Both the position numbers and the translations under genes were made by a program. A DNA stretch of 39,334 bases, taken from positions 1 to 39,334 of IMG/VR virus record IMGVR_UViG_3300019886_000143. One strand, given 5' to 3'. This document shows, piece by piece, positions 1 through 39,334 of this stretch; positions within the stretch are counted from its first letter, which is position 1; each line of letters opens with the position of its first letter. The notes under the pieces were generated by a model. The model searched no databases. It saw nothing but the letters and a program-made list of their open reading frames with translations, and was not told where the DNA came from. The DNA comes from a virus.

Positions 1-25
1 GGTCAGGCTCAGTTTGAACAGATAA

Positions 26-4197: not shown

Positions 4198-4200
4198 TCG

Positions 4201-7778: not shown

Positions 7779-7795
7779 TCACGGAGTGCTGCCTC

Positions 7796-9022: not shown

Positions 9023-9032
9023 AGGAACGAAC

Positions 9033-9437: not shown

Positions 9438-9444
9438 GCGGACG

Positions 9445-13849: not shown

Positions 13850-13860
13850 GGAGAACGATC

Positions 13861-14493
13861 ATGGGCGATCTCAATCAGGGCACTCAGGCGGGAAACGCCG
13901 CCTACCAGAACAACAGCGTCGGGTCCGGCAATCGCTGGGAGGACATGGCGCTCGGCTGGTCCGGTATGGGCCAGTGGGATCCGACCAACGGAGATCGCGG
14001 CTCGCTCCAACAAGCAGCCGCGCAACAGGGCCAGTTCGGGCAAAACCTGCAGGGCCAGTACCTAGCGAATCAGCAAGGCATCAACAGCACGCAAAACATG
14101 CTGTACGGCCTCGCGAACGGACAGAACAGCGTCAGCGCCGCGCAGCTGCAGCAGGGCCTTCAGCAGTCGCAAGCGCAGCAGATGTCGATGGCAGCCGGCG
14201 CGGCGCCGCAGAACCAGGCGATGGCCGCGCGCACGGCGATGAACAACGCCGGCGGCCAGGCGTCCGGGATGATGGGCCAACAGTCGATGGCCGGGCTGCA
14301 GGAGCGACAGGGCGCGCTCAACGCGCTCGCGCAAATGCAGATGCAGCAGAGTGGTCAGAACATGCAGGGCGCGCTCGGCGCGTACCAGGGGCAGAACCAA
14401 GCCTACGGCTCCACGCTCCAGACCCCTCAAAAGGGCGTCGGGAACATGTTCGGTGGCGGCATCGGCGGCGTCGTCGGAGCTCTGGCGGGATAG
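13861..14493 (+). CDS. Gln/Ala/Gly-rich candidate ejection protein
   Basis: A 210-residue protein starting at ATG 13861 (AAGGAG nearby). It is strongly enriched in Gln, Ala, Met and Asn, predicted as long polar helices (QLQQGLQQSQAQQMSM). It ends with a glycine-zipper segment MFGGGIGGVVGALAG that could insert in a membrane. Position at the head of three candidate internal virion proteins suggests a DNA-ejection role like P22 gp7. Family not recognised. Confidence 0.5.
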   Translation: MGDLNQGTQAGNAAYQNNSVGSGNRWEDMALGWSGMGQWDPTNGDRGSLQQAAAQQGQFGQNLQGQYLANQQGINSTQNMLYGLANGQNSVSAAQLQQGLQQSQAQQMSMAAGAAPQNQAMAARTAMNNAGGQASGMMGQQSMAGLQERQGALNALAQMQMQQSGQNMQGALGAYQGQNQAYGSTLQTPQKGVGNMFGGGIGGVVGALAG

Positions 14494-16821: not shown

Positions 16822-19121
16822 TGCCCGATCCGACCCCGCCGAAGACTGTTTCGCTGGTCTCGCCAGAAGGCAAGACGACCGATGTGCCTGCGGATCAAGC
16901 GCAGTCGTACATCGACGATCAGCACTTCACCGTTCAAACGACCGGAGGACGCGCGCAGTCGAACGTCGACACGACCGTCGCGGAGCATTCGTCCAAGCTG
17001 AAGGCGGCCGGGTACGCATTCGCGCGCGGCGTCTCGGGCGGCGCGTCTGACCTGCTGCTCAACGCGGACCAGAAGATCGACGCGCAGGACGAAGAGCAGC
17101 TCCACGGCGGCACGTCACTGCTCGGCAACGTCGCCGGTGCGCTCGTGACCGGCGGACTCGGCGCGGGCTCGCTCGGAGAGCACGCGGCCGAGATGTTCAG
17201 CACGCGCGGCGCGCTCGCCGCTGCAGCCGGCGACGTCGGCGCGCTCGGCAAGACGGTCGGCGGTGTCGTCGAAGGCAGCATCTACGGAGCCGGACAGGGC
17301 CTGTCCGAGGCCGCGCTGTCCGACGATCCGCTCACGGCCGAGAACATCATGGGCCACGTCGGCTCGAACGCGCTGCTTGGCGGCGGTCTGGGCGGCGGAC
17401 TCTCGTTGCTCTCGCACGGCGTCGGCTCGGTGCTCGAGCGCGCCGGTGGAGCGATGCGCGAGGCTGGTGCCGCGAAGGGAGCGCTGGCGTCGGTCCCCGA
17501 GGACCTCGCGAAGCTCGACGAGACTGCGCTCAAGGCGGAGGCCAAGACGGCGGCCGCGGCGCACGAACTCGACAAGGTGGCGGAGGTCAACTCGCTCGAG
17601 TCGCTGCGCGGCAACCAGCGCGCCGAGCTCGCGAACCAGATCCTCGACAGCCACGAGGAGCTGCGGACCGCGAAGATCTACCAGGCCGTGAACGACGAGT
17701 TCACGAAGCTCGCCGAGACGGGCGAGTCCGCCGGCGTCGAGAAGATCGAGGGCATCAGCCTGGCGAAGCGCCAGCTCGCGGACTCGAACGCCGCGCTCTC
17801 GCGGCTGACGAAGCACGAGACGACGTTCGCGCGAGACCCGAGCAAGGCGCTGCAGGCGCTCGAGGATCGCCAGAGCGCTCTCGAGACGATGCAGGAGAAG
17901 ATGCCGCAACTGCGTAGCGCGCTCGCGGACAACCCCGCCGGCGTCGGGCTCGAGCACGTCGATGCCGCGCTCGCGCAGACCAAGTCGCAGATCGACGCGC
18001 TCAAGGCGCTCGACTCCAAGGCGAATCCCGTCACCTCGACCCGTCTGCAGATCATGAAGGCCGGCCCGTCGGCGCGCATGGAGCAGATCGAGGCGGCGCA
18101 GAAGGCGCTCGCCGACGGCAAGGATCTCGGCATCGTCGGCAAGGGCGTGAAGAGCATCGCGAGCTCGACGGCGAGCGGGCTCGCGCACCTCCTGCCGATT
18201 CCGGGCAGCTCGTTCGCGGCGCACTGGATGGGCGAGAAGGCGGGCGCGGCCGTCGAGTGGATGGGCCGCAAGCTGTCGGGCGCGGCGACCAAGACCGCGG
18301 ATGCGACCGCTGGTCACGTGTCGTCGTTCCTCGACGTCGCCGCGAAGGCACCGCGCACGCTCAAAGGTCCCGCGGTCGCGACCGCCACCAAGACCTTGTC
18401 GACGACGAGATTCGGAGCCGAGCAGGCCGTGAAGTCCGACGACCTGAAGGCGCTGTTCAAGGCGCGATCGAGCGAGCTCAAGCAGCAGACGATGTACGCG
18501 CCGCAGCCCGACGGCACGAACGCGGTCGTCATGCGTCCCGAGGCGCGCGCCGCGATGGCGCAGACGTTCGACGGCCTGCGTGCGGCGCATCCCGTGCTCG
18601 CCGACAAGCTCGAGACGATCGCCGCGCGTCGCGTGGCCGTGCAGTCGAAGGCGCTCCCTCGCAAGCCCGACGCTCCGCCGGGTCCGCAGGTCGGGCCCGA
18701 CAAGTGGTCGCCGAGCGATCTTGAGATCCGCCGTTGGGCTCGCGTCGTGCGCGCGACCGAGGATCCGGCCTCCGTCGAGGAGCGGCTCGCGCACGGCATC
18801 GTCACGCCCGAGGAGGCGAACGCGTACCGCGAGGTCTACCCGGAGCGCTTCGCGGCGCTGCAGCAGACGATCTTCAACGCGTTGCCGACGCTCTCGAAGA
18901 CCTTGCCGATGCGTAAGAAGGTCGCACTCTCCATCTTCACCGGCATCCCGATCACGCCGGCGATGCGGCCGGAGATCGTGAAGACGCTGCAGGCGACGTT
19001 CGCCGTCGAGCCGGGCAGCGCCGGCGGCACGCAAGCCCCGAAGCCACAGCCATCGTTTGGCAAGTTCGGTTCGATGAAGGACCAAGACAAGCCGACCCCG
19101 AACCAGGAGCGTCAGTCATGA
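16821..19121 (+). CDS. Candidate ejection protein with glycine-zipper segments
   Basis: A 766-residue protein from GTG 16821 (TAGTG overlap). Residues ~95-210 hold several Gly/Ala-rich hydrophobic stretches (GNVAGALVTGGLGAGSLGE, NALLGGGLGGGLSLLSHGVG), like channel-forming parts of ejection proteins. Residues ~220-410 are coiled coils. Another hydrophobic part (AHLLPIPGSSFAAHWMGEK) is at ~455. Together with its two upstream neighbours it could form the periplasm-spanning conduit. Inferred from composition and order. Confidence 0.5.
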   Translation: MPDPTPPKTVSLVSPEGKTTDVPADQAQSYIDDQHFTVQTTGGRAQSNVDTTVAEHSSKLKAAGYAFARGVSGGASDLLLNADQKIDAQDEEQLHGGTSLLGNVAGALVTGGLGAGSLGEHAAEMFSTRGALAAAAGDVGALGKTVGGVVEGSIYGAGQGLSEAALSDDPLTAENIMGHVGSNALLGGGLGGGLSLLSHGVGSVLERAGGAMREAGAAKGALASVPEDLAKLDETALKAEAKTAAAAHELDKVAEVNSLESLRGNQRAELANQILDSHEELRTAKIYQAVNDEFTKLAETGESAGVEKIEGISLAKRQLADSNAALSRLTKHETTFARDPSKALQALEDRQSALETMQEKMPQLRSALADNPAGVGLEHVDAALAQTKSQIDALKALDSKANPVTSTRLQIMKAGPSARMEQIEAAQKALADGKDLGIVGKGVKSIASSTASGLAHLLPIPGSSFAAHWMGEKAGAAVEWMGRKLSGAATKTADATAGHVSSFLDVAAKAPRTLKGPAVATATKTLSTTRFGAEQAVKSDDLKALFKARSSELKQQTMYAPQPDGTNAVVMRPEARAAMAQTFDGLRAAHPVLADKLETIAARRVAVQSKALPRKPDAPPGPQVGPDKWSPSDLEIRRWARVVRATEDPASVEERLAHGIVTPEEANAYREVYPERFAALQQTIFNALPTLSKTLPMRKKVALSIFTGIPITPAMRPEIVKTLQATFAVEPGSAGGTQAPKPQPSFGKFGSMKDQDKPTPNQERQS

Positions 19122-19657
19122 CTCGATACGTCCAGCTCAATCACGGAACCCTCTACGCCGTCGATCCGATCGGTCCGCCGATCGGCAACATCATCCCGCC
19201 GGTGTGGGACGCCGTGAACAACTGGTCCGTCGCGATTCCCGGAGCGGGCACGTTCTTCTTCCCGATCGGCGGCGAGCGCTACGGCGCGATGGTCGAGACG
19301 GTCTTCCATTCGCTCTCGCTCGTCTGGAACGCGGCGCTCGCCGGCGTGTTCACGATCGAGGGGACGAACTGCGCGAAGTCGCAGACGGCCAACGACACGG
19401 GTGGTCCCGACGTCTCCGACTGGGACACGTCGCCGGCGTGGCAGCAGATCGATATCACCGCGGCCGGGATGCTCTACACGAACATCACCGGAGCAGGAAA
19501 CACGATGGCGAAGCTCACCGCGACGATCGGCGGCGCGAACGCCGGCGGCGCGCTCTACAACCTTCCCGAGCTCGGGATGCTGCGCATGCGCGGCAAGCTC
19601 GTCGCGACGCACAGCGGACAGCTCCGCGTCGCCGCGATGGCGAAGCTCGGATCCTAA
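19118..19657 (+). CDS. Minor structural protein
   Basis: A 179-residue, ATGA-coupled beta-rich protein without signal or catalytic motif (YVQLNHGTLYAVDPIGPP, then ATIGGANAGGALYNLPELG). It sits between ejection and fibre genes, so a role as a tail-tip or fibre-attachment subunit is likely. Family not recognised. Confidence 0.5.
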   Translation: MTRYVQLNHGTLYAVDPIGPPIGNIIPPVWDAVNNWSVAIPGAGTFFFPIGGERYGAMVETVFHSLSLVWNAALAGVFTIEGTNCAKSQTANDTGGPDVSDWDTSPAWQQIDITAAGMLYTNITGAGNTMAKLTATIGGANAGGALYNLPELGMLRMRGKLVATHSGQLRVAAMAKLGS

Positions 19658-19666
19658 GGAGCGCTC

Positions 19667-19960
19667 GTGCCGTACCCGCACATGCCATCGAGCGGTCATC
19701 CGCCGGCCGCGAACCCTGACCAGCGGTTCAAGTACGTGTGCACGGGCACCGAGACCGACACGTTCAACGTTCCGTTGCCGAGCGCGCGTGCAAACACGAA
19801 CTACATCGCGGTCGTGTCGCTGCTCTTCGGCTCCTCGAGCTCGCAGTACCTCTGCAACGCACCACCGACCGGCTACACGACAACCCAGATCCAAGTCATC
19901 GCCGGCGCGGCTCCTGCTGCGGGCGATGTGCTCGGCATCGTCATCACGGACATCGCATGA
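19667..19960 (+). CDS. Small structural protein near fibre
   Basis: A 97-residue protein from GTG 19667 with an AAGGAG ribosome site about 6 bases before. All-beta composition (YIAVVSLLFGSSSSQYLC). It overlaps the fibre gene by ATGA and probably forms part of the same appendage. Family not recognised. Confidence 0.5.
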   Translation: MPYPHMPSSGHPPAANPDQRFKYVCTGTETDTFNVPLPSARANTNYIAVVSLLFGSSSSQYLCNAPPTGYTTTQIQVIAGAAPAAGDVLGIVITDIA

Positions 19961-21408
19961 AGCCCCAAATCATCCGCCCCGTGAGCCGCTTCGCCGCGAT
20001 CGCGGCAACCGTCGCGGCGACTGTCGCACTGTGCATGTTCCCGATGCTCGAGATCGGGCGGAGCTTCGAGCGACACGACCATCGCACGTCGTTCCCGGAA
20101 CAGTTCGTCACGCTGGCCTCGACGCTCGAGGCCGAGAACCTTCACGTCTCGAACAGCGTGATCGTTGACGGCGAGACGGACATGAACAGCCTGCTCAACC
20201 TCGACGGCAATCTACACTTCAATTCGAACCTCAACACGCTGGATATGAACCTCGGGTTCATTACGAATCTCATGGATCCGACGAACGGATCGGATGCGGC
20301 CACGAAGAGCTACGTCGATGCGCACGGCGGAGGTTCGCTCTCGGGCGGAGGCACGAACGGATCCGGCGCACGTTGGACGAGCTCTACGTCGCTCGGTAAC
20401 GCGTCGTTCGGAGACAGCGGATCAATTCTCACGATCAACGCGCTCGCGGATGGCGTGGCAGTCGACAACACGACGTTCGCGGCGCCCTCCGCATTCGTTA
20501 ATAACTACGCGTTTCCCGCGAACGCGCGAACAGTAGTCATCGGCGCGAGCGGCGTTGGCGCGGCGGCACTGGTCACGGGCATCGTCGCCCCGACCACAAG
20601 CTACCGGCGAATCTCGATCGTGAGCAACGCCGGGCAGTGTCTGTCCGTCTACGACGACAATACGAACAGCACGATCACCAACCGTATCAAGTTGCAGATG
20701 AACGCAACCGCGAACGGGTTCCTCTGCAACGGAGGATCGCTGGACTGCATTTATGATCCGAATGCCGGCACGGTCACGCCAGGCCGATGGGTTTGCTCGA
20801 TCACGTGGGCTCAACAGTCCCCGAGTAGCGTCACGATCAACGGGGCGCTGACGGCCACTGGCAACGTCATCGCGTTGAATGCTAGTTTCGCCGGCTTCAT
20901 CGGAGCCAACAACGGTGTGTACGAGGGAGCTGCCAGCGACGTGGTGCTCCACACGAGCGATATCATGTACGGCGTCGGCAGCAACGCTGCGTACACCGGC
21001 TACATCAACGCAGCCGGCTACAACGAGCTGTTGACTCAGCCGCGCTCGCTCGGCATTGGCGACGGCGAGGGCAGTAGCAGTTCACACCTGATCGAATTTC
21101 TCGACGGAGCCACTCGATCGGCTGCATTCTACGGCCACGTCAAAGCGATCGGCGGCATCGCGCCATCGTTCTCCAACGCGCTTTGCAACTCGACGACGTG
21201 CACCGACTACGCGGGCACGATCCAGACATCGTCTACGACAATGACGATCACGTTCGGGCAGACGTACACGAACGCCGACGATGCCGGGTGCATCCTGCAG
21301 GAGATGGGCGGCACGGTCGTGCCGACGTTCACGACGAGTGCGACCGCGTTGACCGCGACCGTCGTCGTGAGCGGCGTCAAGTACCACTACATCTGCGTGG
21401 GGCACTGA
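19957..21408 (+). CDS. Tail fibre-like protein with N-terminal membrane anchor
   Basis: A 483-residue protein from ATG 19957. Residues ~12-35 are one hydrophobic segment (FAAIAATVAATVALCMF) preceded by basic residues, like a signal anchor. Residues ~60-115 carry strand repeats ending in MDPTNGSDAATKSYVDA, a motif very common in phage tail fibres. The rest is Ser/Thr/Gly-rich beta, and the C-terminal domain (TMTITFGQTYTNADDAGC) resembles a receptor-binding or chaperone-type tip. A membrane anchor on a fibre is unusual; the fibre call itself is fairly secure. Confidence 0.7.
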   Translation: MKPQIIRPVSRFAAIAATVAATVALCMFPMLEIGRSFERHDHRTSFPEQFVTLASTLEAENLHVSNSVIVDGETDMNSLLNLDGNLHFNSNLNTLDMNLGFITNLMDPTNGSDAATKSYVDAHGGGSLSGGGTNGSGARWTSSTSLGNASFGDSGSILTINALADGVAVDNTTFAAPSAFVNNYAFPANARTVVIGASGVGAAALVTGIVAPTTSYRRISIVSNAGQCLSVYDDNTNSTITNRIKLQMNATANGFLCNGGSLDCIYDPNAGTVTPGRWVCSITWAQQSPSSVTINGALTATGNVIALNASFAGFIGANNGVYEGAASDVVLHTSDIMYGVGSNAAYTGYINAAGYNELLTQPRSLGIGDGEGSSSSHLIEFLDGATRSAAFYGHVKAIGGIAPSFSNALCNSTTCTDYAGTIQTSSTTMTITFGQTYTNADDAGCILQEMGGTVVPTFTTSATALTATVVVSGVKYHYICVGH

Positions 21409-24389: not shown

Positions 24390-24523
24390 CGGATCCTCCA
24401 GCGCCACACCGCATCGCCGGTGGGCGGCAAGACCTTGAGCCGCGCGAGAACGAGGATGCTGTCGACGGTGAGGCGGATCATCAACGCGTAGATCCGGCCG
24501 ATCGCGACGAGGAAGCGGATCAC
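24386..24523 (-). CDS. Small amphipathic/membrane-like protein
   Basis: A 45-residue protein from GTG 24523, overlapping the methyltransferase stop by GTGA. The N-terminal half is hydrophobic with regular Arg residues (IRFLVAIGRIYALMIRLTVD), so it could be membrane-associated. Function unknown. Confidence 0.45.
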   Translation of the reverse strand: MIRFLVAIGRIYALMIRLTVDSILVLARLKVLPPTGDAVWRWRIR

Positions 24524-26370
24524 GCGACCAGCGCTCCGAGATGTGGCGCGACCCATATCTCGTTGTTGTCGAGCTCGAACGCGCCGAGCGACGCGAGCAG
24601 CAAGGCTCGAAGCAGCTGGTTGCCGATCGCGGTGCCCGCCTTCGGCGGAACAGCGTTGCCGATCGCTTCGCGCCATCGCGTGTGGCTCGTTCCAGCAAGC
24701 ACGAGGGGCGCGCCGGCGAACAGCGCCGGGAAGCTCTGCAGCACCGCGAGCTCAAGCGTGGTCAGCGGTCGATGCCACGTGCCATCATCGGCGACGATGA
24801 TCGGGATGAAGCCTGGCGATCGGTCAGGGTTGAGGTCGAGCTCGAGCGCCTCGGCGAGCGTCATCACGCGGTAGCGGTCGCTCGGTGGCCACGTCCGCGG
24901 GTCCGCGACCTGGAACGCCCCGCTGTGGATCTTCGCGCCGCTCGTGACCGTCGGCGAAGGTGACGTCCACGCGGTGACGCCAGCGACCTGTTGCCAGTTC
25001 TTCTTCTTGCCGTCGGCGAAGCGTGGATCGGCGACGCTGAACTTACCGTTGTTCGGAAGCGACTCGCCCGCGATCGTGCCTGCAGCTTCGTTCCACGCGG
25101 TGACGCCGAGGCGACCACCTCCCCATCGTGGATCGGCTACCGCGCCACCGCCCGAGCTCGGCGCCGGTGATCGCGTGATCGTTCCGACCGGTTGCTCCCA
25201 GTCGGTGACGCGATCGACGTTGCCGAACCGTGGATCGGCAACAGCAGCGCGCGCGGCGTCGATGCGATGCTTGCCGATCACGGCGGCGCTGGGCTCGTCG
25301 AACGAGAGCACGCCGTACGCTCCTGCTCGTGGTGCGCAGCCGAGACCGATCCGAGGATCAGCTATCGACGGAGCTCCACTGCCCACGCGCGTATCGGTAC
25401 CGGTTACGGTGAGCGCTGGTTGGGTCCAACCGTGGACGGCGTACTTGTTCCAGTGCCGACCATCGCTCGCAGATATCGCGACGCGCGGATCCGCCACGGC
25501 GACAGAGGCACTGCCGCCTGGGCCGGTCACGGTCTCGGCGGTCGCGTCCCACGCGGTCACTGGTGCGCGGCGGAATTTCTCGCGTCGCTTCTCGCCGTCG
25601 AGCAGCGTGCCGGGGAGGTCGCGCCAGTCGCCGCCGGCAGGAATCAGCGCGAGCCGTAGCCAGTTGCGCCACGACAGCTTCGGTACTGAATGCATCGGGC
25701 CGGCAAGCTCGACGTTCCCGGGAATCGGCAACGGACCGAGAACCTCGCCGCAGGCGCGCACGCGAAGCTTCGGTGGCTGATAGACGAATTGTGGAATCTT
25801 CGCGCGCAGCCGCCAGAGCTGGAAGTAGCGGCGCCGGTGCTGCGCGAGGCCACCGAGCTCTCCGCAGTCGTGCGTGCCCTCGGCGACCGCGTAGCCGTGC
25901 GCCTCGCCCATCGCGATGCAGCGCCGAACCATCGCCTTGCCGCGACTCGCGATCCGCGGAACGTTCTCGACGAAAACGAGCGCCGGCGGTGTCGGCCAGG
26001 TCGAGCAGATCAGGAACAGCGCACGCTCCATCAGCGTGTTCATCCGCTGGTAGTGCTCCTCGGCCGCACGCTTCGCCGAGAGCAGTCCCGAGAAGCCCTT
26101 GCATGGCGGGGACATCATGATGACGTCGGGTGCGACGGGGCCGAAGAACGCGATCAGATCGGCGGGCTCAAGCGTGTGCAAGTCCGCGCACAGCGTCGGC
26201 GCGCCGACGAGCATCTCGAAGTCCTTGCAGGCTAGCGGATCGAAGTCGATGCCGCCGACGGTCTCGAAGGAGGCTTCGTGGTCGCCGACCATCGCGAGCG
26301 CTTGCGACGCCCCCAGGCCCTTGCCGCCCATGCCGCAAAAGATGTGCGCGATGCGATAGGTGTGCTTCAA
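24520..26370 (-). CDS. DNA cytosine-C5 methyltransferase with repeat-containing target region
   Basis: A 616-residue protein from TTG 26370 with GGAGGG 7 bases before it. Motifs: FCGMGGKGLG (~11-20, SAM binding), MMSPPCKGFSG with catalytic C90, FVENVPR (E135-N136-V137), QHRRRYF (~177), and GNAVPP (571-576). It transfers methyl groups to cytosine C5, likely shielding phage DNA from restriction. Residues ~291-495, where the target-recognition domain lies, hold six copies of VADPR/IADPR spaced 34-44 residues. No cognate restriction enzyme is seen, so it is a solitary methylase. Specificity unknown. Confidence 0.9.
   Translation of the reverse strand: MKHTYRIAHIFCGMGGKGLGASQALAMVGDHEASFETVGGIDFDPLACKDFEMLVGAPTLCADLHTLEPADLIAFFGPVAPDVIMMSPPCKGFSGLLSAKRAAEEHYQRMNTLMERALFLICSTWPTPPALVFVENVPRIASRGKAMVRRCIAMGEAHGYAVAEGTHDCGELGGLAQHRRRYFQLWRLRAKIPQFVYQPPKLRVRACGEVLGPLPIPGNVELAGPMHSVPKLSWRNWLRLALIPAGGDWRDLPGTLLDGEKRREKFRRAPVTAWDATAETVTGPGGSASVAVADPRVAISASDGRHWNKYAVHGWTQPALTVTGTDTRVGSGAPSIADPRIGLGCAPRAGAYGVLSFDEPSAAVIGKHRIDAARAAVADPRFGNVDRVTDWEQPVGTITRSPAPSSGGGAVADPRWGGGRLGVTAWNEAAGTIAGESLPNNGKFSVADPRFADGKKKNWQQVAGVTAWTSPSPTVTSGAKIHSGAFQVADPRTWPPSDRYRVMTLAEALELDLNPDRSPGFIPIIVADDGTWHRPLTTLELAVLQSFPALFAGAPLVLAGTSHTRWREAIGNAVPPKAGTAIGNQLLRALLLASLGAFELDNNEIWVAPHLGALVA
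24886..25500 (-). repeat. Six-fold ADPR repeat inside the methyltransferase
   Basis: Six degenerate units, each beginning [VI]ADPR and followed in most by a W..P..T[VI] stretch; spacing is 44, 41, 34, 35 and 42 residues. They lie between motif VIII and motif IX, so they make up most of the target-recognition domain. The coding DNA has related but not identical copies. Confidence 0.7.
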
Positions 26371-27233: not shown

Positions 27234-27502
27234 GGCTCTGCGGTCTTTCGGATCGCGGCGACGCGGCGCTTCTTGGCCACGTCGACGCCGATCGTTGCGA
27301 ATTCCTCGGCGATGTCGGCGAGCTCGATGATGGCTGTGCAGCGCTCGATATCGCGCAGTGCGAGCCGACCGAGCGACTTGGTCGCGACGTCGGAGATCGT
27401 GACGATCGTCGCCCGAAGCTTCGCCCGTTCCTCGAGCAGCTTGCGAACCGCGGCGTTGGTCTTCGCCGCGTGCTCGAGCTGTTGCTCTTCGGCGGGCGTC
27501 AT
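27230..27502 (-). CDS. Small helical protein
   Basis: A 90-residue protein from ATG 27502, overlapping the exonuclease stop by ATGA. Almost entirely helical, with a coiled coil (EEQQLEHAAKTNAAVRKLLE) and a basic end. Function unknown; its position directly after the exonuclease suggests a role in recombination or its control. Confidence 0.55.
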   Translation of the reverse strand: MTPAEEQQLEHAAKTNAAVRKLLEERAKLRATIVTISDVATKSLGRLALRDIERCTAIIELADIAEEFATIGVDVAKKRRVAAIRKTAEP

Positions 27503-28398
27503 ACCAGCACCTTCTTTCCGTTGAACTCCAGGCCGAGGTCTCCGTCGGGCTCCCAGATGTCGAGCTCGCCGACCGCGCTCAAGTACTCCGGCCACTGCCC
27601 GGTCGCCTCGCAGACGTTCAGCCGTTCGATCCACCCGCGGCACAGCATCTCGCCGACCTCGAGCGCGCGATCGGTGACGCGCAGGATCGACACCGGCCAC
27701 GGCGCGGTCTTCTCGACCGCGACGATGTAAGCGTCGACCGGGCGCTTCTCGCCGATCGTCTCCATCGCCTCGCCGTAGAGCCAGAGCTGCGCGTGATAGA
27801 ACAGGCGCAGCGCCACCCGCGCGAACTGCGACGGCTCCGACGACACCGCGGTCTTCAGGTCGACCAGGTGCGGGCCGCGCGCGTCCGGCGTCGCCCTTGC
27901 CGACTTGCCGACGAACGAGAACTCGATCTTCGATTCGCGCACGGTGTCCTGGCAGAGCAGCCGCATCGCGTGCTCGTTGCGGCGGAGCGCCGTCGCGACC
28001 GCCATCGCCATCGCGTGCTCCTTGTCGTTCAGGATCTCGACGATGCCGTCTTTCGCGGCGTCGGCCTGGAAGTCCTGCCAGGCCTTCGTGCGAGGGTCGC
28101 GCCGGCCCGAGTACCGACCGATCGTGGCCGGATCGCCGAGAAGGGTCGCGTGCACCGCGGTGCCGAACCGCAGCGCATCGGCTCGCTTCTGATACGCGGA
28201 ACCGAGCATCCCGAGCCGGCTCGCGATGGTGTCGTCTTGCGGCTGTTGCGCGGCGTGGTGATAGTGCGCCGGCGAGAGCGCCATCTTCTTGAGCAGCGAG
28301 AATCGTGTCGGCACGGTGCGCGGATCGACGGCCTGCGAGCCATTCGACTCGAGCTCATCGCGGAGGTCCTCGGACAGGTCGAAGGTGTCGTCGAGCAT
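27499..28398 (-). CDS. PD-(D/E)XK exonuclease (RecE/YqaJ-like)
   Basis: A 299-residue nuclease starting at ATG 28398 with AAGGAGG close before it. The N-terminal half has LRFGTAVHATLLGD (near residue 92), common in phage PD-(D/E)XK nucleases of the DUF3799/RecE group. ATPDARGPHLVDLKTA (~180-195) gives the D...DxK core, and FYHAQLWLYGEAM the following YhxQ helix. It probably degrades one strand of double-stranded DNA for annealing recombination or end processing. The gene just upstream is its likely partner. Confidence 0.75.
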   Translation of the reverse strand: MLDDTFDLSEDLRDELESNGSQAVDPRTVPTRFSLLKKMALSPAHYHHAAQQPQDDTIASRLGMLGSAYQKRADALRFGTAVHATLLGDPATIGRYSGRRDPRTKAWQDFQADAAKDGIVEILNDKEHAMAMAVATALRRNEHAMRLLCQDTVRESKIEFSFVGKSARATPDARGPHLVDLKTAVSSEPSQFARVALRLFYHAQLWLYGEAMETIGEKRPVDAYIVAVEKTAPWPVSILRVTDRALEVGEMLCRGWIERLNVCEATGQWPEYLSAVGELDIWEPDGDLGLEFNGKKVLV

Positions 28399-28889
28399 CA
28401 GTCCTCCTTCGGGGCGTCGGGGTCGAACGTGTAGCCATCGCCCGGCGGCGGTTCGGTCGTCGTCTTCGTGTCGGGCGGCGCCGGTGCGAAAGCCGGCTGG
28501 TTCATCTGCGGACGCTTCGGCGCGATGCGGATCGCGTCGGTCTCCTGCTGCTCGCCCGTCTTGCGATCCTTGAACCGCGTGCGGACCACGACGAGCTCGA
28601 CCGGGCCGCGCCACTGCTCGATGACGCCCGTGCCGGTGATCGTCTGCATCGCCTTGCAGTTGGTCGCGTTGAGCGCGAGCACCTTCGGCAGCGCCTTGCC
28701 GCTCCGACCCTTGAACGCGATCCACGGCATGTCCTTCTTCTTGTCGCCGTCGGACACGCCGATCACGCCGCTGTCGACGATCTCCATCACGACCGACGTG
28801 CGGCCGTTGAGGTCCTCGGCGAACAGCAGGTTCTCGTTCATCCGGCGGTGCACCTCGCGCCAGTGCGTCTGCGTCTTCGCCGCGGTCAC
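28398..28889 (-). CDS. Conserved phage protein next to exonuclease, possible DNA-binding partner
   Basis: A 163-residue protein; GTG 28889 is chosen because it overlaps the upstream stop by GTGA (GTG 28922 is the longest option). The core (RTSVVMEIVDSGVIGV, then PWIAFKGRSGKALPKVLALN, then NCKAMQTITGTGVIEQWRG) recalls a small family found beside exonucleases in phages, whose role I do not know for certain. The C-terminus is Pro/Asp-rich, like acidic tails of single-strand binding proteins. An annealing or SSB-like role is inference. Confidence 0.5.
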   Translation of the reverse strand: MTAAKTQTHWREVHRRMNENLLFAEDLNGRTSVVMEIVDSGVIGVSDGDKKKDMPWIAFKGRSGKALPKVLALNATNCKAMQTITGTGVIEQWRGPVELVVVRTRFKDRKTGEQQETDAIRIAPKRPQMNQPAFAPAPPDTKTTTEPPPGDGYTFDPDAPKED

Positions 28890-29587
28890 TTGGACACCGC
28901 CCAGTCCTTGGGCCTCGGACACTCCGGCCAGCTTTCCGAATCAGCCTGGAGGCACCGCAGGATACTCAGTCGATGGATGTCCTCGGGAGCCTTCGAGGGT
29001 TTGAACACCCGATGATCTTTCTTAGGGCCGTCGGACGCGAGCTCGTCGAGGTGTCGCGTTCCCGACGTGCGCACGACGGTGCACGCGCCGATCAACTCGT
29101 ACTCGTCGCCGGCGATCCGCTTCAGCCACCCGACTTTGGTGACCTTGTAGTAGTAGCGGCCGGGCATCTGGATGATTTTCAGTCCTTCTTTCACGTCGAG
29201 TTCTCCGATCAAGATTGCGAGCAGGTTGTGAGCTTTCAGACGGGCGTCGGCGTCGGCGTCGGCGGCGGCGGCGTCGTCGGCGTCGGCGTCGGCGTCGGCG
29301 GCGGCGTCGTCGGCGTCGGCGGCGTCGGCGTCGTCGGCGTCGGCGTCGGCGGCGTCGGCGTCGTCGGCGTCGGCGTCGTCGGCGACGGCGTCGTCGGCGT
29401 CGGCGGCGGCGGCGTCGTCGGCGTCGGCGGCGGATGACCGCCTATCAAAAATCCAGTGGGCCACGCCGAGCCTCGTCGGGTTTTCGCCGTTCGATAAACG
29501 GAAGTCCTCCAACACCGCTCGGGCATCCGGATCGCTCCGAAGATCGAGAAGCTGTTGCGGAGGCTCTAGGGCTCCGCGACCGATCAC
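28886..29587 (-). CDS. Protein with long Ala/Asp low-complexity linker
   Basis: A 233-residue protein from GTG 29587. Residues 1-53 are mixed, residues ~54-115 consist of Ala and Asp with a single Val, and residues ~116-233 form a folded-looking domain (LLAILIGELDVKEGLKIIQ, GRYYYKVTKVGWLKRI). The linker is encoded by a GCC/GAC trinucleotide array. The acidic stretch may be a spacer or a DNA-mimicking segment; no family is recognised. Confidence 0.55.
   Translation of the reverse strand: MIGRGALEPPQQLLDLRSDPDARAVLEDFRLSNGENPTRLGVAHWIFDRRSSAADADDAAAADADDAVADDADADDADAADADADDADAADADDAAADADADADDAAAADADADARLKAHNLLAILIGELDVKEGLKIIQMPGRYYYKVTKVGWLKRIAGDEYELIGACTVVRTSGTRHLDELASDGPKKDHRVFKPSKAPEDIHRLSILRCLQADSESWPECPRPKDWAVSK
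29243..29434 (-). repeat. GNC trinucleotide array coding for Ala/Asp tract
   Basis: About 190 bases built almost only of GCC and GAC codons (GGC and GTC on the plus strand), with longer units visible, such as ADADDADAAD occurring twice in tandem. All three minus-strand readings stay open through it (one gives Thr/Pro repeats). Such arrays are prone to length change by slippage or recombination. Confidence 0.85.
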
Positions 29588-30860: not shown

Positions 30861-31054
30861 GAGCGAACCTCGATCGTTCCGATCACGACCACCGTCACGC
30901 AGTGGAACTGGTTGTCGCTCGGCTGCATCGTGCGGATCTCCTGCACGACGAGCGACGGCTGGTCGCGCATCTAGACCGTGACCGCCTCGCCGAGCACGTC
31001 GCGATCGCGGTGCATCGTCGCGGAGAAGATCTTGACGATCGGGACGCGCTTCAC
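30857..31054 (-). pseudogene. Small FSAT...FHC protein interrupted by an in-frame TAG
   Basis: Reading from GTG 31054 gives KRVPIVKIFSATMHRDRD and ...GEAVTV, a TAG at 30973-30971, then in the same frame ATG and MRDQPSLVVQEIRTMQPSDN, QFHCVTVVVIG, up to TGA. Together the two halves look like one 65-residue protein of a family I recall from Myxococcota (KVFSAT..RDRE.LGE.VTEW...SSD..FHC.T), with the TAG in the place of a conserved Trp (TGG). It is coupled on both sides by GTGA, so the frame is intact apart from the stop. Two short peptides by reinitiation at the adjacent ATG are also possible. Confidence 0.55.
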
Positions 31055-31239
31055 TTGTCACCGCCGACGCGCGGTTGCGGAACGCCCGTCGCATCCGTCT
31101 CGCGGATGATCGGAATCAGCTGGCGTCGGCGCGGCTCGCGCTCGGCGTCCCGGTTGGCGTCGCGATCAACCTTCTCGTTGATGCGGCGCGATTCGTCGTA
31201 ATAGAGGTGGTTTCCGTTCTCGTCCTGAGTCGTGAGCAT
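31051..31239 (-). CDS. First gene of the leftward early operon; small Arg-rich protein
   Basis: A 62-residue, highly charged protein (SRRINEKVDRDANRDAEREP, then RRRQLIPIIRE). The ATG lies 3 bases from a perfect copy of the operator, so it should be the first gene under repressor control. No ribosome site is obvious, and the leader must be very short. The Arg-rich part could bind RNA, and its place matches that of antitermination genes in lambdoid phages, but no homology is seen. Confidence 0.55.
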   Translation of the reverse strand: MLTTQDENGNHLYYDESRRINEKVDRDANRDAEREPRRRQLIPIIRETDATGVPQPRVGGDK

Positions 31240-31242: not shown

Positions 31243-31300
31243 GTATCATTACCTGATACGTATGACACTCGTCCAGTCTCTTTGTATCAGTTCGTGCGAC
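31243..31300 (-). promoter_or_regulatory. Left operator region (two sites)
   Basis: Perfect site GTATCA-ttacc-TGATAC at 31243-31259 and a second site with one degenerate half, GTATCA-gttcg-TGCGAC, at 31284-31300. Both have the 5-base spacer and are about 41 bases apart centre to centre, near four helical turns. They sit directly before the first gene of the leftward early operon. A clean promoter was not identified. Confidence 0.65.
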
Positions 31301-31320
31301 TGGTAGATCTACGCGAGCAA

Positions 31321-31503
31321 CTACGCGTGGTAGCGCTTGCGCGGTCGACCTCGAAACATCAGCTGCCAATCATAGCGGGCGATGATCTGCTGCGCCTCGA
31401 TGAGATCGCGGAGCCCGCTCTGCACCTCCTCGAACTTCGCCTCGTCGAGTTCGCGAAGCGCCGCGCCTAACGCCGCCCACTGAACGCCGGAATCGTCTTC
31501 CAT
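31321..31503 (-). CDS. HTH-less paralogue of the repressor tail
   Basis: A 60-residue protein whose residues 7-38 (WAALGAALRELDEAKFEEVQ) match residues 91-122 of the adjacent repressor (WAELGAKLRELDAARFAEML): I count 17 identities in 32 positions. It lacks the helix-turn-helix half. The GGAGG before it directly abuts the ATG, so translation may be weak. It is probably co-transcribed with the repressor. If the shared part is the oligomerisation domain, this protein could form mixed inactive complexes and tune repression. Confidence 0.6.
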   Translation of the reverse strand: MEDDSGVQWAALGAALRELDEAKFEEVQSGLRDLIEAQQIIARYDWQLMFRGRPRKRYHA

Positions 31504-31533
31504 CCTCCGACGCTAGCAACCGGGGCTGACTAC

Positions 31534-31959
31534 TTAGCGCGCGCGGTCCGGATTGGGCCGTAAGATCATGGCAAATGCGTTCTTCTCCTGAATCTTCGCA
31601 TCTACCAATAACCGCACGCCGGTGAGCATCTCGGCGAAACGAGCTGCGTCGAGCTCTCGCAGCTTGGCTCCAAGCTCGGCCCATTCGGCGAGCGGTGATT
31701 CCGCATTCGAGCCGACGAGTGGGCGCCGGCTCTTCGCTTCGATCCTCACTAACTCGTCCTCGACACTGCGCAGCGATCCGATGCTGGCCTTCCCGGCCTT
31801 CAGACGGAACGCGGTCGCTCGTTCGATGCCGGCCTTCTTACAAAGCTCGACCCACTCTTGTCCGATGGCGTTCGCGCGCGCGACAACCTCGGCGACCTGC
31901 GCGGCCGTCGCGTGATTCTTCGGCACCGCGACGCCAGGGATCTCGCGTGGCTTCTCCAT
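31534..31959 (-). CDS. XRE-like phage repressor
   Basis: A 141-residue protein from ATG 31959 (AGGGAA about 6 bases before); a longer start at 32016 would read through an operator and is less likely. Residues ~33-72 form a helix-turn-helix (QEWVELCKKAGIERATAFRL) followed by a helical C-terminal part with WAELGAKLRELDAARFAEML, likely for dimerisation. There is no LexA-like peptidase domain, so RecA-dependent self-cleavage is not expected. It lies between two operator clusters, like cI in lambda. Confidence 0.7.
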   Translation of the reverse strand: MEKPREIPGVAVPKNHATAAQVAEVVARANAIGQEWVELCKKAGIERATAFRLKAGKASIGSLRSVEDELVRIEAKSRRPLVGSNAESPLAEWAELGAKLRELDAARFAEMLTGVRLLVDAKIQEKNAFAMILRPNPDRAR

Positions 31960-31987
31960 CGATTCCCTGATGGTAAAGCCCGCGCGC

Positions 31988-32036
31988 GTATCACTTCTGA
32001 GACCACCATCTTGCACTCGGTATCAGGGTCTGATAC
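31988..32036 (+). promoter_or_regulatory. Right operator/divergent promoter region
   Basis: Perfect site GTATCA-gggtc-TGATAC at 32020-32036 and a degenerate GTATCA-cttc-TGAGAC at 31988-32003. They lie between the repressor start and the Cro-like gene, so both promoters would be covered. TTGCAC (32011-32016) and GATACT (32032-32037) might be a weak rightward promoter with the -10 inside the operator; this is tentative. Confidence 0.65.
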
Positions 32037-32044
32037 TTGAGTGG

Positions 32045-32239
32045 ATGATGTCTACAGGAAACCGCATCCAGGCTATCCGCGAGAAGCGGGGATGGAGCCG
32101 GGCTGACCTGGCGAAGAAGCTCGGTTGCACGCGGATGACCGTATGGCGTCTCGAAACAGGCGAGACGAGCCTACCTGCAGACGAGCTGCCTCGGGTCGCT
32201 CGTGTGCTCAAGGCCAAAGTGACCGAGCTGATCGCGTGA
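32045..32239 (+). CDS. Cro/CI-type helix-turn-helix regulator
   Basis: A 64-residue protein from ATG 32045 (ATG 32048 also possible). It is a full HTH_3 domain: IQAIREKRGWSRADLAKKLG, CTRMTVWRLETGETSLP, and VARVLKAKVTELI. The size and the divergent place next to a repressor fit a Cro-like protein that shuts repressor synthesis or early genes. The start lies 8 bases after the right operator. Confidence 0.8.
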   Translation: MMSTGNRIQAIREKRGWSRADLAKKLGCTRMTVWRLETGETSLPADELPRVARVLKAKVTELIA

Positions 32240-32931: not shown

Positions 32932-32975
32932 CCAGCTTTTTATTTGCTCGTGCGCGTCCGGAGTGTGGACGGTGA
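32928..32975 (+). CDS. 15-codon leader peptide before the helicase
   Basis: ATG at 32928 overlaps the previous stop (ATGA); the frame MTSFLFARARPECGR ends in a TGA that overlaps the helicase GTG (GTGA). It thus forms a translational bridge between the two genes. GGAG at 32960-32963 within it serves the helicase start 8 bases later. A regulatory or purely coupling role is inferred. Confidence 0.35.
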   Translation: MTSFLFARARPECGR

Positions 32976-34573
32976 GCGCATCTATCACGTCGATCCGTCC
33001 GCGGACATTGCCGCACAACCTCGACGCGGAAGCCTCCGTGCTCGGCGGCGTCATCCTCGACAACAAGATACTTGCGGGCCTCGACATGCTCGCGACCCAC
33101 TCGTTTTACGATCCGAGACATCGCGTCACGTGGGACGCGATGCGCAATCTCCAAAGCGCCGGCCAACCGATTGACGTCGTGACGCTCGAGGCCGAGGTCG
33201 CTCGGATGGGCAAGCTCGACGCCCTCGGCGGGATGGCGTTCTTCGGCGAGATCGCGATGCGATGCCCAACGCCCGACAACGTGCTCGCGTACGCGCGGAT
33301 CATTCGCGATCACGCGCTGATTCGCGAATCTGCACTCACCGGCGCCCGCATGGTCGAGCGCGCGTACGACTGGGAATATTCGGCAGACGAATTTCTCGGC
33401 GAGCACCTCGCGGACATCCAACGGATCGAGCGCGAGTATCGCGAGGCGAACGAGAAGCTGCCGATCATCACGATCGAGGACACGCTCGACGAGAACGAGC
33501 GCCTCGCGCGAACGCCGATCTTCGAGACGCCATTCCCTGAGCTCAACAAGGCGCTCGGGTTCGGCGGTCTTCTCGGCGGTCAGGTCTACTACCTCGCCGG
33601 CGGCACGGGCTTCGGCAAGACGAGTTGGATCGCGACGGTCGTGCGTGCGCACGCCGAAGCCGGTAGGCCGGCTCTCATCGCGTTCTGGGAGATGTTCGGC
33701 GGCTACTACACCGCTCGCATGTCGGCTCCGATCCTCGGGGTGCCGGCGACGCAGATCCTGCGCGGACATGTCGAGCGTCGAAGCATTTCGAATGTGTTTA
33801 GCGCGATGCCGGGCTCGATCGAGATGCTCGATTCGCCGTCGATGTCGGTGCTTCGTCGAACGGTCGAGCGAACAATCAGACTCGGCCGCGGTGCGCCGCT
33901 GATCGTCGTCGACTACATCCAGCTCCTCGGCGAGAAGGTGATGGCGACGATGCAGCGGCCCGATCCGCGCGTCGCCGCGGGGATGGCGAGCGCCGGACTC
34001 CGCGCGCTCGCGAAGGAGACCGGCTGCGCGATCATCGCGGTGTCGGCAGCCGGACGATCAGCGTCGAAGGATCTCAACAAGGACGTCCGGAAGCATCCGC
34101 CGCGTGACCTGATCGCCGCGTCGCGCGAGAGCGGATCGATCGAGTTCGATGGCGCCGGCGTGATCGTGCTCTCGATGCTCGATGAGATGGACGGCGACGA
34201 GCACATCGCGACGATGACTGTCGCGAAGGCGCGGTTCGGGATGACCTGCCACATTGATTCGAGGTTCGGCGGTCACTCCGGCGGCTGGCGAGAAATCGGT
34301 CGCGTTCAGAAGGTGACAACGATCGATTCGAAGCGGGACGACGGCTCCTTCCGACAGGAGATCCTGGCCGCCATCAAGAAGGCCGGCGGCATCGCTTCGA
34401 AGAACAAGATCTCGAAGCTCATCGGCCGCAACAAGACGTCCGTCTTGAGCGAGGTCGACGTGATGATCGATGCCGGGATCGTCATCTCCACGAGCGGCGG
34501 AATCTCGGTCGCCCAAGTGGTTCCGGAGGTGGTTCCAGCCCTTCTTCAGACCGCGATGCTGGAGTCCCAATGA
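32972..34573 (+). CDS. DnaB-like replicative helicase
   Basis: A 533-residue protein from GTG 32972 with GGAG 8 bases before. N-terminal DnaB domain (LPHNLDAEASVLGGVILDNK, ~13-32), linker, then RecA-like domain with GGTGFGKTS (Walker A, 210-218), AFWEMFGGYYTARM, and PLIVVDYIQLLG (Walker B, D314). Unlike most DnaB proteins it carries an extra C-terminal winged-helix-like part (FRQEILAAIKKAGGIASKNK, then ISKLIGRNKTSVLSEVDVMI). No primase or loader gene was found. The 3' end of the gene contains two copies of the origin-like repeat. Confidence 0.85.
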   Translation: MSASITSIRPRTLPHNLDAEASVLGGVILDNKILAGLDMLATHSFYDPRHRVTWDAMRNLQSAGQPIDVVTLEAEVARMGKLDALGGMAFFGEIAMRCPTPDNVLAYARIIRDHALIRESALTGARMVERAYDWEYSADEFLGEHLADIQRIEREYREANEKLPIITIEDTLDENERLARTPIFETPFPELNKALGFGGLLGGQVYYLAGGTGFGKTSWIATVVRAHAEAGRPALIAFWEMFGGYYTARMSAPILGVPATQILRGHVERRSISNVFSAMPGSIEMLDSPSMSVLRRTVERTIRLGRGAPLIVVDYIQLLGEKVMATMQRPDPRVAAGMASAGLRALAKETGCAIIAVSAAGRSASKDLNKDVRKHPPRDLIAASRESGSIEFDGAGVIVLSMLDEMDGDEHIATMTVAKARFGMTCHIDSRFGGHSGGWREIGRVQKVTTIDSKRDDGSFRQEILAAIKKAGGIASKNKISKLIGRNKTSVLSEVDVMIDAGIVISTSGGISVAQVVPEVVPALLQTAMLESQ

Positions 34574-34893
34574 CTGCGCCTCAACTCGGTTTGTTCGAAA
34601 CGCCGAATAGTGAGGAGTTTCGCGGTTCCAAACCGGTTCCGGAACCACCTGGAACCACCGAGACCAGGTGGTTCCGGAACCACCTGCCGAATTCCTCAAT
34701 GATTCAAGGCGGTACAAGCATCGCCCTAAAGGGAACTGAAATCCTGGAACCACCTACCGAAAACAGACCCCTCTTGCAGGGGGAGAGTGATCGCTACGCT
34801 CTCTCCCCTGCTGATCAGAAGGGTCGTGGACCGGAACCGGACAGAAGCAGAGCTACCCCGGTTTCCACCTCCGGAACCACCTCCGGAACCACC
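34515..34893. repeat. GGAACCACC repeat array, candidate replication origin
   Basis: GGAACCACC(T) or its complement occurs at about 34515, 34527, 34641, 34651, 34666, 34676, 34746, 34873 and 34885, with partial copies (GGTTCC/GGAACC) at 34624, 34635 and 34833. 34666-34685 is a perfect 20-base palindrome (AGGTGGTTCC then its complement); 34641-34660 holds two direct copies head to tail, and the last two copies repeat at 12 bases. Between them lies a relatively A/T-rich piece (34688-34745). The array spans the end of the DnaB-like gene and the low-complexity N-terminus of the next helicase. Confidence 0.75.
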
Positions 34894-36471
34894 CCTCAAC
34901 TCCGCCCCTATCAGACCGCCGCGATCGAAGCGGTGGAGCGCGAGCTCGCCACCCATCGCAGCACCCTGCTCGTGCTTCCGACCGGCACCGGCAAGACGGT
35001 CGTCTTCGCGGAGCTCGCGCGTCGCGATGCGCTCGCCGGATCACGAACGCTCGTGCTCGCGCATCGCACCGAGCTGCTCGAGCAGGCCGCGCGAAAGCTC
35101 ACCGACGTCGGAGTCACGTCGAGCATCGACCAGGGTCAACGTATCGGCTCACGGTGGGCGCAGGTGGTCGTCGGTTCGGTGCCGACGCTGCGAGGAGCTC
35201 GCCTGCATCGCTACCCGCGCGACTTCTTCGCCAAGCTCGTGGTCGACGAGGCGCATCACTCCGCCGCGAAGAGCTACGGCAACATCCTCGAGTGGTTCAC
35301 CGGCGCGAAGGTCCTCGGCGTCACGGCCACGCCGGATCGCGCGGACGGCAAGGGCCTCGGCAAGATCTTCGAGACGCTCGCGTACTCGTACGAGATGCGA
35401 CGAGCGATCGCGGACGGCTTCTTGTCGCCGCTCCGAGCCAAGCGCGTGCTCGTGAAGGACATCAACCTCGCGGCGGTGAAGAATCGCGCCGGCGACTTCG
35501 CGCAGGACGAGCTCTCGAAGGTCCTCAACGATGCGAAGGCCGTCGTCGGCGTCGTGGTGCCGCTGCTCGAGATGGCGGACCGCCGTCGCACGCTCGTGTT
35601 CGGCGTCGACGTCGCGCACGCCAAGGCGATCGCGCAGGCGATCAACGATCGGCACCCGGGCAAGGCGATGGCGCTTGACGGAACCGCGAACGCCGTCGAG
35701 CGCGCCGCGGTGCTGGCGCTGTTCAAGCGCGGAGCGTTCCAGTTCCTGTGCAACTGCGCGCTATTCACGGAGGGCTTCGACGAGCCCAGCATCCAGTGTG
35801 TGGCGATGGCGCGGCCGACGCAGAGCCGCGTGCTGTACACGCAGATGCTCGGTCGCGGCACGCGGCTCTTCGAGGGCAAGACCGACTGCCTCGTGCTCGA
35901 CTTCGTCGGCAACAGCGGCAAGCACCGGCTGATCGGACCGGCGGATGCGCTCGCGGCCCGCGAGCTCGACGACAAGACCCGCGAGATCATCGAGAAGGAT
36001 CTCGACGGGCAGCAGGACCTCGAGGACGTGCTCGCGCATGCCGAGGAGGAGGCGAAGAAGAGATCCCGCCGCGTGAACGAGCTCGCGATCGCCGAGTACC
36101 GCACGCGCGAGGTCGATCTGTTCCTGGGCGACCACATGCCGGACGTCGACCTCGATTCGGACGCGGCTAAGCGCCCCATGACCGACGTCCAGCGCGCCGA
36201 GTTCGACCGTCTCAAGCTGGGCAAGCCTCCGCAGGGGTTCTCCGAGGCGGAGGCGCACGCAATGTTCCTCGCCGTACGGAAACGGCGGGCGCTCGGCCTG
36301 TGCACTGTGGCGCAAGCCAGAGCGTTAGAGCGGGCAGGGATCGACACCAAGGGCATGAAGTTCGAGCGGGCGAACGAGCTGATCATCAAGATCGTCGGCG
36401 CCAACGCGTGGGGCCAGCCGTGGCGTGTGTTCAGCGGCGCTCCCGAGTACCGGCCCGGGAGGCGCTCGTGA
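34570..36471 (+). CDS. SF2 DEAH helicase with sliding-clamp motif
   Basis: A 633-residue ATP-dependent helicase, ATGA-coupled to DnaB. Motifs: LRPYQTAAIEAV (~111), LPTGTGKT (136-143), VVDEAHHS (DEAH 226-229), VTATPDR (~251), and QMLGRGTRLFEG (~420). This is the UvsW/RecQ/type III restriction-like group used in fork remodelling or branch migration. Residues 1-110 are low-complexity and contain PQLGLFE at the start, a canonical bacterial beta-clamp binding motif. The coding DNA of this part holds most of the origin-like repeats. The C-terminus is helical (VRKRRALGLCTVAQARALER). Confidence 0.85.
   Translation: MTAPQLGLFETPNSEEFRGSKPVPEPPGTTETRWFRNHLPNSSMIQGGTSIALKGTEILEPPTENRPLLQGESDRYALSPADQKGRGPEPDRSRATPVSTSGTTSGTTPQLRPYQTAAIEAVERELATHRSTLLVLPTGTGKTVVFAELARRDALAGSRTLVLAHRTELLEQAARKLTDVGVTSSIDQGQRIGSRWAQVVVGSVPTLRGARLHRYPRDFFAKLVVDEAHHSAAKSYGNILEWFTGAKVLGVTATPDRADGKGLGKIFETLAYSYEMRRAIADGFLSPLRAKRVLVKDINLAAVKNRAGDFAQDELSKVLNDAKAVVGVVVPLLEMADRRRTLVFGVDVAHAKAIAQAINDRHPGKAMALDGTANAVERAAVLALFKRGAFQFLCNCALFTEGFDEPSIQCVAMARPTQSRVLYTQMLGRGTRLFEGKTDCLVLDFVGNSGKHRLIGPADALAARELDDKTREIIEKDLDGQQDLEDVLAHAEEEAKKRSRRVNELAIAEYRTREVDLFLGDHMPDVDLDSDAAKRPMTDVQRAEFDRLKLGKPPQGFSEAEAHAMFLAVRKRRALGLCTVAQARALERAGIDTKGMKFERANELIIKIVGANAWGQPWRVFSGAPEYRPGRRS
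34776..34811. other. Long hairpin within the origin-like region
   Basis: GCAGGGG-g-AGAG at 34776-34787 pairs with CTCTCCCCTGC at 34801-34811: 11 base pairs with one bulged G and a 13-base loop. It lies inside the helicase coding frame but in its low-complexity N-terminal part, so DNA- or RNA-level function is plausible, for example single-strand initiation. Confidence 0.5.
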
Positions 36472-38463: not shown

Positions 38464-38705
38464 GCCGCGTCGATCGCAGGAAGCGTCACGCGACGGGCGT
38501 CATGGGTCGCAACGGCACCACGCCGATCGAGATCAAGAACCTTGAGCACGCGATCGCCGAGCTCACGAGCGCTCGCGAGGAGCTGATGCGCATCGATGCG
38601 GCGCAGCTCCGAGGTCTCGACCGCGTGCACGCTCGCGTCGAACCGATCGCGAGGCTCGTGCTCGTGCGCAGGTACATCGACGAGATCGCGAAAGGCGCCA
38701 CGTGA
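38460..38705 (+). CDS. Small basic helical protein
   Basis: An 81-residue protein, ATGA-coupled to ruvC. Basic N-terminus (SRVDRRKRHATGVMGRNG) and two helices (NLEHAIAELTSAREELMRID, RVHARVEPIARLVLVRRYID). Function unknown; DNA-binding plausible. Confidence 0.5.
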   Translation: MSRVDRRKRHATGVMGRNGTTPIEIKNLEHAIAELTSAREELMRIDAAQLRGLDRVHARVEPIARLVLVRRYIDEIAKGAT

Positions 38706-39079
38706 TGAACCTCGACACGTGGACGCTCGATCCGGTGTTCGGATGCAGAATCTGGACGGGCAAGCTGAGTGACAACGGCCGCCCGGTGATCTGGCGCGGG
38801 TCGTCGCCGCAGAGCGTGATTCGCATCGTGATGGGCACGATCAAGCCCGAGCACGTTCCAGATCACCTGTGCCGCAACATCGTGTGCGTGTATCGCGAGC
38901 ACCTCGAGGCCGTGACGAAGGCCGAGAACGAGCGGCGCAAAGGCATGAAGTATCGGATGAAGCGAGCGAAGTGTCCGCACGGTCATCGACTCGACGAGGC
39001 GACAAGGATGTTGACGCCGACAGGCGGTGTGCTGTGTCGGATCTGTCATCGAGAACAACAAGCAGGAGAACGAGCATGA
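38702..39079 (+). CDS. HNH endonuclease
   Basis: A 125-residue protein from GTG 38702 (ATG 38705 also possible). It has GCRIWTGKLSDNGRPVIW, VPDHLCRNIVCVYREHLEAV (H, N and H of the HNH core with a zinc Cys pair), and the added C-terminal ribbon CPHGHRL...CRICHRE found in many phage HNH proteins. The N-terminal part is shorter than usual but the core seems intact. It may act as a homing nuclease or packaging helper. Confidence 0.75.
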   Translation: MMNLDTWTLDPVFGCRIWTGKLSDNGRPVIWRGSSPQSVIRIVMGTIKPEHVPDHLCRNIVCVYREHLEAVTKAENERRKGMKYRMKRAKCPHGHRLDEATRMLTPTGGVLCRICHREQQAGERA

Positions 39080-39285
39080 GCAAGACGATCAGTGAAGTGA
39101 TGCAAGAGCTACTCGACGCAACCTCTGCGGCAGTGCAGCGCTGCGAAGGGACGACCACGGAAGCGTTCACGCGCGCGTACGCGACGCTCGAGTCGACGAC
39201 GAGCCCATCGTTCGGCACGAGCACAGCGAGCAGCGCAGGCGTTCGTGAGCTAGGTGCGATCGGCGCGCCGGCACCGGGTGCCTGA
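39076..39285 (+). CDS. Small hypothetical protein
   Basis: A 69-residue protein from ATG 39076 (ATGA overlap). One helix (ISEVMQELLDATSAAVQRCE) followed by a Ser/Thr/Ala-rich tail. No family recognised. Last gene before the end of the window. Confidence 0.5.
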   Translation: MSKTISEVMQELLDATSAAVQRCEGTTTEAFTRAYATLESTTSPSFGTSTASSAGVRELGAIGAPAPGA

Positions 39286-39334
39286 CCACCCCATTCGGGC
39301 CGGGTAACCCCCTCGATGGGGTAGGACCTCGGCC
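39270..39334. other. Right-end inverted repeats
   Basis: GGCACC-g-GGTGCC (39270-39282) overlaps the end of the last gene, and ACCCC-cctcgat-GGGGT-like pairing lies at 39307-39322. No T-run follows either, so terminator function is doubtful. The remaining bases hold nothing else I can see. No direct repeat of the window's first bases is found here. Confidence 0.3.

Follow-up and report, generated by a model that had tools for sequence, protein, structure and literature searches.

A putative lambda-type immunity region built from sequence-unrelated parts in an apparently uncharacterised phage lineage

In a 39,334-bp record of an uncultured phage (IMG/VR IMGVR_UViG_3300019886_000143, analysed over its full length and hereafter called the window), positions 31,243 to 32,239 probably constitute a lambda-type immunity region, that is, a lysis/lysogeny switch, built from sequence-unrelated parts; we put the probability of this reading at about 0.8. 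The lambda-type reading is well supported by layout and by comparison with a relative, and the repressor is a non-lambda one. Divergent repressor and Cro-like genes are separated by shared dyads, a second cluster of dyads lies beyond the repressor at the start of a leftward operon, and replication genes (DnaB, helicase, RuvC-like) lie rightward and recombination (exonuclease VIII-like) leftward. We favour an O_L-repressor-O_R-cro reading because a related phage, G003, keeps this layout with near-identical spacings around a different dyad.

Results

Operator-like dyads flank the candidate repressor

The dyad GTATCA-N5-TGATAC is present in perfect form, as originally predicted, at 31243..31259 (O_L1, GTATCATTACCTGATAC) and at 32020..32036 (O_R1, GTATCAGGGTCTGATAC). 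The leftward operon's first gene has its start codon 12 bp from the centre of O_L1, and the cro-like start codon is 17-20 bp from that of O_R1. Each perfect dyad has a degenerate partner. O_L2 (31284..31300), 41 bp from O_L1, carries two mismatches, both in the right half-site, and O_R2 (31988..32003), which is 32.5 bp away from O_R1 and lies 36.5 bp from where the repressor gene starts, carries one mismatch together with a 4-bp spacer that sets its geometry apart from that of the N5 dyads. Both degenerate copies are real, then, albeit weaker than the original prediction implied. Each cluster holds two recognisable sites, compared to three in lambda-type regions.

From base composition, 0.00034 perfect copies of the dyad are expected in the window. 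We also searched for every dyad made of 4-6-bp half-sites around a spacer of 0-9 bp, running the search alike on the observed clusters and on controls from the same genome, namely 1000 dinucleotide shuffles and 1000 random region pairs; the window clusters outscored 1000/1000 of the former and 1000/1000 of the latter. A scan for GTATCA/TGATAC sites with spacers of 4-6 bp, which covered the 39,334-bp record and was hence genome-wide for the available sequence, found three sites with no more than one mismatch, every one of them in this region, and five with two or fewer, of which four lie here. Such a scan had been proposed as a check on the switch, and the many equally good copies elsewhere that would have spoken against it were not seen. 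The operators may overlap promoters in the window; a consensus promoter scan found no sigma-70-like promoter.

The genes around the dyads

The gene to the right of O_R1 (32048..32239, +; 63 aa, with an ATG also at 32045) faces right, as anticipated, and heads the rightward replication operon. Its product is a clear helix-turn-helix (HTH) protein of the Cro/C1 type (Pfam HTH_31, 4.1e-13; HTH_3, 1.9e-11) that resembles the DNA-binding domain of the 434 repressor in the PDB. Relatives of this Cro-like protein were considered for footprinting and dropped as uninformative, being generic XRE proteins of Firmicutes, enteric and mycobacterial phages. Further along, the operon encodes a DnaB-like replicative helicase (32972..34573, +; phrog_19, E 7e-52), a second DNA helicase (34570..36471, +; phrog_16, E 6e-95) and a RuvC-like resolvase. 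The left cluster does precede a leftward operon, whose first gene (31051..31239, -; 62 aa) has no family match and which leads, via a gene from a family of unknown function (28398..28922, -; phrog_21613), to a recombination-type exonuclease (27499..28365, -; exonuclease VIII-like, DUF3799/PD-(D/E)XK).

Between the clusters, the candidate repressor gene (31534..31959, -) encodes 141 aa, with a weak lambda-repressor-type HTH (LCKKAGIERATAFRLKAGK) and a helical C-terminal segment. The protein has no family match in Pfam, NCBIfam or PHROGs. With a small XRE profile the alignment falls exactly on LCKKAGIERATAFRLKAGK, at a weak E of 0.095, and the HTH, which is detectable only against XRE proteins, resembles that of the window's own Cro-like protein, with 0/1000 shuffles aligning as well. 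These alignments weakly suggest an XRE/HTH repressor. The leftward gene predicted between the clusters is there; its label 'XRE' amounts to a weak similarity. By sequence, no relatives were found in viral contigs, bacterial genomes, phage or plasmid records. An AlphaFold single-sequence model was uninformative and gave no meaningful fold match; it renders residues 89-132 as helix with low to moderate confidence. The S24 peptidase domain (PF00717), which we detected in 10/14 control genomes, is absent from the whole of the window and from G003, in line with the claim that the repressor has no peptidase domain. It is fair to infer that the phage must be induced by another route than lambda.

How might such a switch operate? 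The 141-aa protein would bind the GTATCA-N5-TGATAC dyads pairwise on both sides. At O_R, where the sites are about three helical turns apart, it would shut the Cro-like/replication operon and control its own gene; at O_L, with about four turns between sites, it would shut the leftward recombination operon. The Cro-like protein, in turn, could read the same dyads via a similar recognition helix and push the phage toward lytic growth.

A relative keeps the layout but not the dyad

Searches with DnaB, terminase, portal and capsid proteins returned a handful of contigs of this lineage, among which G003 (40,372 bp) is the only one that includes an immunity region, making it a single comparator. (The exact O_L1 17-mer also matched in 16 viral contigs; these were taken as chance matches.) The terminase of G003 is about 54% identical to that of the window and its structural genes follow the same order, inverted. 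In the window itself, the terminase, portal and structural module occupies 2545-6135 (-) and 6518-21408 (+). None of 50,697 phage records matched the window portal protein, and a portal search of bacterial genomes found no prophage; the phage appears, from these searches, to belong to an uncharacterised lineage represented by few metagenome contigs only.

Two further features of these genomes deserve mention in their own right. The window (28886-29587, -) and G003 (L024; 2075-2881, -) both encode proteins with conserved termini (LxPPQxLLDxRSDPDARAVL at the N-terminus, EGLKxIQxPGRY at the C-terminus) around a long, strongly acidic Asp/Ala repeat, whose DNA is a GGCGTC tandem array. The window also encodes a C5-cytosine DNA methyltransferase (24520-26370, -); it matches its family in two separate stretches, which points to an insertion or to an unusually long variant of the enzyme.

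In G003, a small XRE gene (6294-6512, -) sits in the Cro-like position and opposite it lies the gene for a 134-aa HTH repressor (6594-6998, +) that matches a PHROG annotated 'transcriptional repressor' (4.4e-5). Foldseek matches of the latter are mostly to the HTH of SinR, DdrO, 434 and HipB, at probabilities mostly of 0.5-0.9 and E values all above 0.4. A 52-aa ORF (L024; 7086-7244, +) occupies the rex position, and the next operon comes after it. The G003 dyad, TCGG-N5-CCGA, is exact at 6524-6536, 7227-7239 and 7268-7280, with a one-mismatch copy at 6557-6569; the O_L2 dyad at 7227-7239 overlaps the last codons of the 52-aa ORF. In the all-dyad search, 1-2/1000 shuffles and 1-11/1000 random pairs scored as well, so that the G003 dyad is supported yet less extreme than that of the window.

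The spacings agree closely. O_L sites are 41 bp apart in both phages and O_R sites 33 bp apart in G003 versus 32.5 bp in the window; the strong dyad lies 18 bp from the cro-like start (window: 17-20 bp) and 11 bp from the start of the leftward-type operon (window: 12 bp), and O_L and O_R are separated by 744 bp versus 777 bp. Note that these matches were noticed post hoc and carry no formal test; the chance of finding a one-mismatch site within 1 bp of the 33-bp position is about 0.005. The two repressors, by contrast, yield no significant alignment. Conserved layout with a changed dyad implies that operator sequence and repressor have diverged, and the comparison supports a pattern as would be expected of heteroimmune phages. 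Recognition helices compared by eye (TRMTVWR/ERATAFR in the window, PQSSV/AQSTL in G003) are alike within each phage and unlike between them, in keeping with both proteins of a phage reading the same dyad; the likeness is only suggestive of shared operator reading.

A copy of the repressor tail in the rex position

The clusters flank the candidate repressor, as claimed, but they also enclose a second small leftward gene (31321..31503, -; 60 aa) that the earlier reader overlooked. It lies between the repressor and O_L, where lambda carries rex and 434 carries hex as accessory genes (PMC3564112). The first half of its product repeats the C-terminal segment of the repressor (WAALGAALRELDEAKFEEVQSGLRDLIEA versus WAELGAKLRELDAARFAEMLTGVRLLVDA): 17/29 residues are identical and the local alignment score is 90, the maximum in 1000 shuffles being 46. 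Judged from this alignment, the protein, which is without an HTH, clearly duplicates the helical segment at the repressor's C-terminus.

Being related to its repressor as SinI is to SinR, the 60-aa protein is a candidate antirepressor. SinI copies the two-helix hook of SinR, and the mixed dimer that the two proteins form can no longer bind DNA (PMC3163267); by analogy the 60-aa protein might plausibly modulate or disarm the repressor via mixed dimers, a role that is much less certain than the switch itself. In its most specific form, in which a stand-alone dimerisation tail in the lambda-rex position poisons a non-cleavable repressor through mixed dimers, we consider the idea tentative and rather doubtful.

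Alternatively, and at only slightly less than even odds, the gene might be a decaying duplicate, or its product an inconsequential partner of the repressor. We found no relative of the protein outside this phage, and the small ORF at the corresponding place in G003 bears no detectable or significant similarity to it, as one might expect of a dispensable duplicate. Yet the frame is open, begins with ATG and has coding-like codon use, and 19/35 nucleotide differences from the repressor gene fall at third codon positions, as expected for protein-coding sequence under selection.

Is the region a switch at all?

No tyrosine integrase, resolvase or partition gene was recognised in the window, making lysogeny only putative, while G003 does carry a tyrosine integrase. 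One might therefore imagine a lytic phage that inherited the switch from a temperate ancestor, has since lost lysogeny, and uses the Cro/CI-like pair solely to time early transcription. Missing sequence offers a limited way out: the linear records of the window and G003 break between the same two genes (the 38702-39079 homolog and endonuclease VII), from which we conclude that the window is probably almost complete, with little missing; the shared ends (window 1-553 and 38702-39334, and the ends of G003) even suggest fixed physical genome ends. Nevertheless, the record may be incomplete, and the phage may be maintained as a plasmid, or may integrate by means of an integrase that escaped recognition. 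The repressor gene, the Cro-like gene and the four sites have all stayed intact, where decay would be expected if they were unused. Loss of lysogeny is something we regard as unlikely, though worth keeping in mind.

A reversal or sharing of roles, with the rightward HTH protein (32048-32236) as the main repressor and the 141-aa protein as an accessory regulator, seems more improbable still. It would account for the firm HTH family match being confined to the rightward protein. However, that protein is encoded at the head of the replication operon, like Cro. The 141-aa protein is the one encoded between the clusters, and its counterpart at the same position in G003 has matches among phage repressor families.

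Finally, that the dyads arose by chance or serve other readers (a host regulator, terminators) can be given very little credence, for although some half-sites double, by eye, as a TGATAC -10-like sequence, 0/1000 controls were as good as the window clusters in the all-dyad search, nothing resembling a terminator turned up at the dyads, and G003 keeps dyad positions rather than dyad sequence, which fits a phage-encoded, diverging reader better than a host factor.

Discussion

Reading the region as a lambda-type switch places it alongside lambda, 434 and P22, with which it shares a repressor gene between two clusters of one dyad, a divergent Cro-like gene at the head of a replication operon, a leftward recombination operon starting at O_L, and accessory gene(s) between repressor and O_L. 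It differs in that its repressor is not alignable and is without an S24 autocleavage domain, in its dyad, in having two recognisable sites per side rather than three, and in the lack of an integrase in the window. Of the O_L-cI-O_R-cro arrangement put forward in the original prediction, then, the layout stands and recurs in G003, while the weak repressor HTH, the two sites per side and the want of a recognisable integrase or resolvase fit it less well.

Small repressors that do without cleavage have precedents. Gifsy phages have small non-cleavable repressors with known antirepressors (PMC3121763), and GfoR/GtgR, at 136 aa, are close in size to the 141-aa protein and likewise without a cleavage motif (PMC3121763). 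The Gifsy antirepressors, however, lie outside the immunity region under LexA control (PMC3121763), whereas the candidate described here lies inside. The candidate repressor had no significant match among the 50,697 phage records, a set that may or may not include Gifsy phages. CI of TP901-1, which works with MOR, is likewise an HTH repressor with a helical C-terminal segment, through which it dimerises, in place of a peptidase domain (PMC4941734); it shows no detectable homology to the candidate, and its operators are O_R, O_L and a distant O_D (PMC4941734).

With regard to the 60-aa protein, the closest parallel is SinR-SinI of Bacillus subtilis, where the small protein consists solely of a duplicate of the repressor's C-terminal pair of helices (PMC3163267). 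SinR is a bacterial biofilm regulator with no alignable sequence, and the heterodimer is only a candidate in our case. Small phage proteins proposed to inactivate the phage's own repressor are also encoded by the smORFs of linear plasmid-like phages, but those are without homologues and act on autoproteolytic repressors (PMC10432266), whereas the 60-aa protein is a paralog of the repressor tail. Non-cleavable small repressors and antirepressors are thus already known; a repressor-tail paralog in the rex position could be a potentially new part.

What emerges is a concrete, testable switch for a lineage whose portal protein is unmatched in 50,697 phage records. The window and G003 form a natural pair, in which the operator layout has been kept while operator sequence and repressor have changed, and which is well suited to asking how new immunity specificities come about. 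If the tail gene does disarm the repressor, we would be looking at a phage with a non-cleavable repressor that builds its off-switch from a fragment of that repressor; poisoning through mixed dimers would make this a self-contained, SOS-independent induction or threshold-setting device, born of a partial duplication of the repressor gene.
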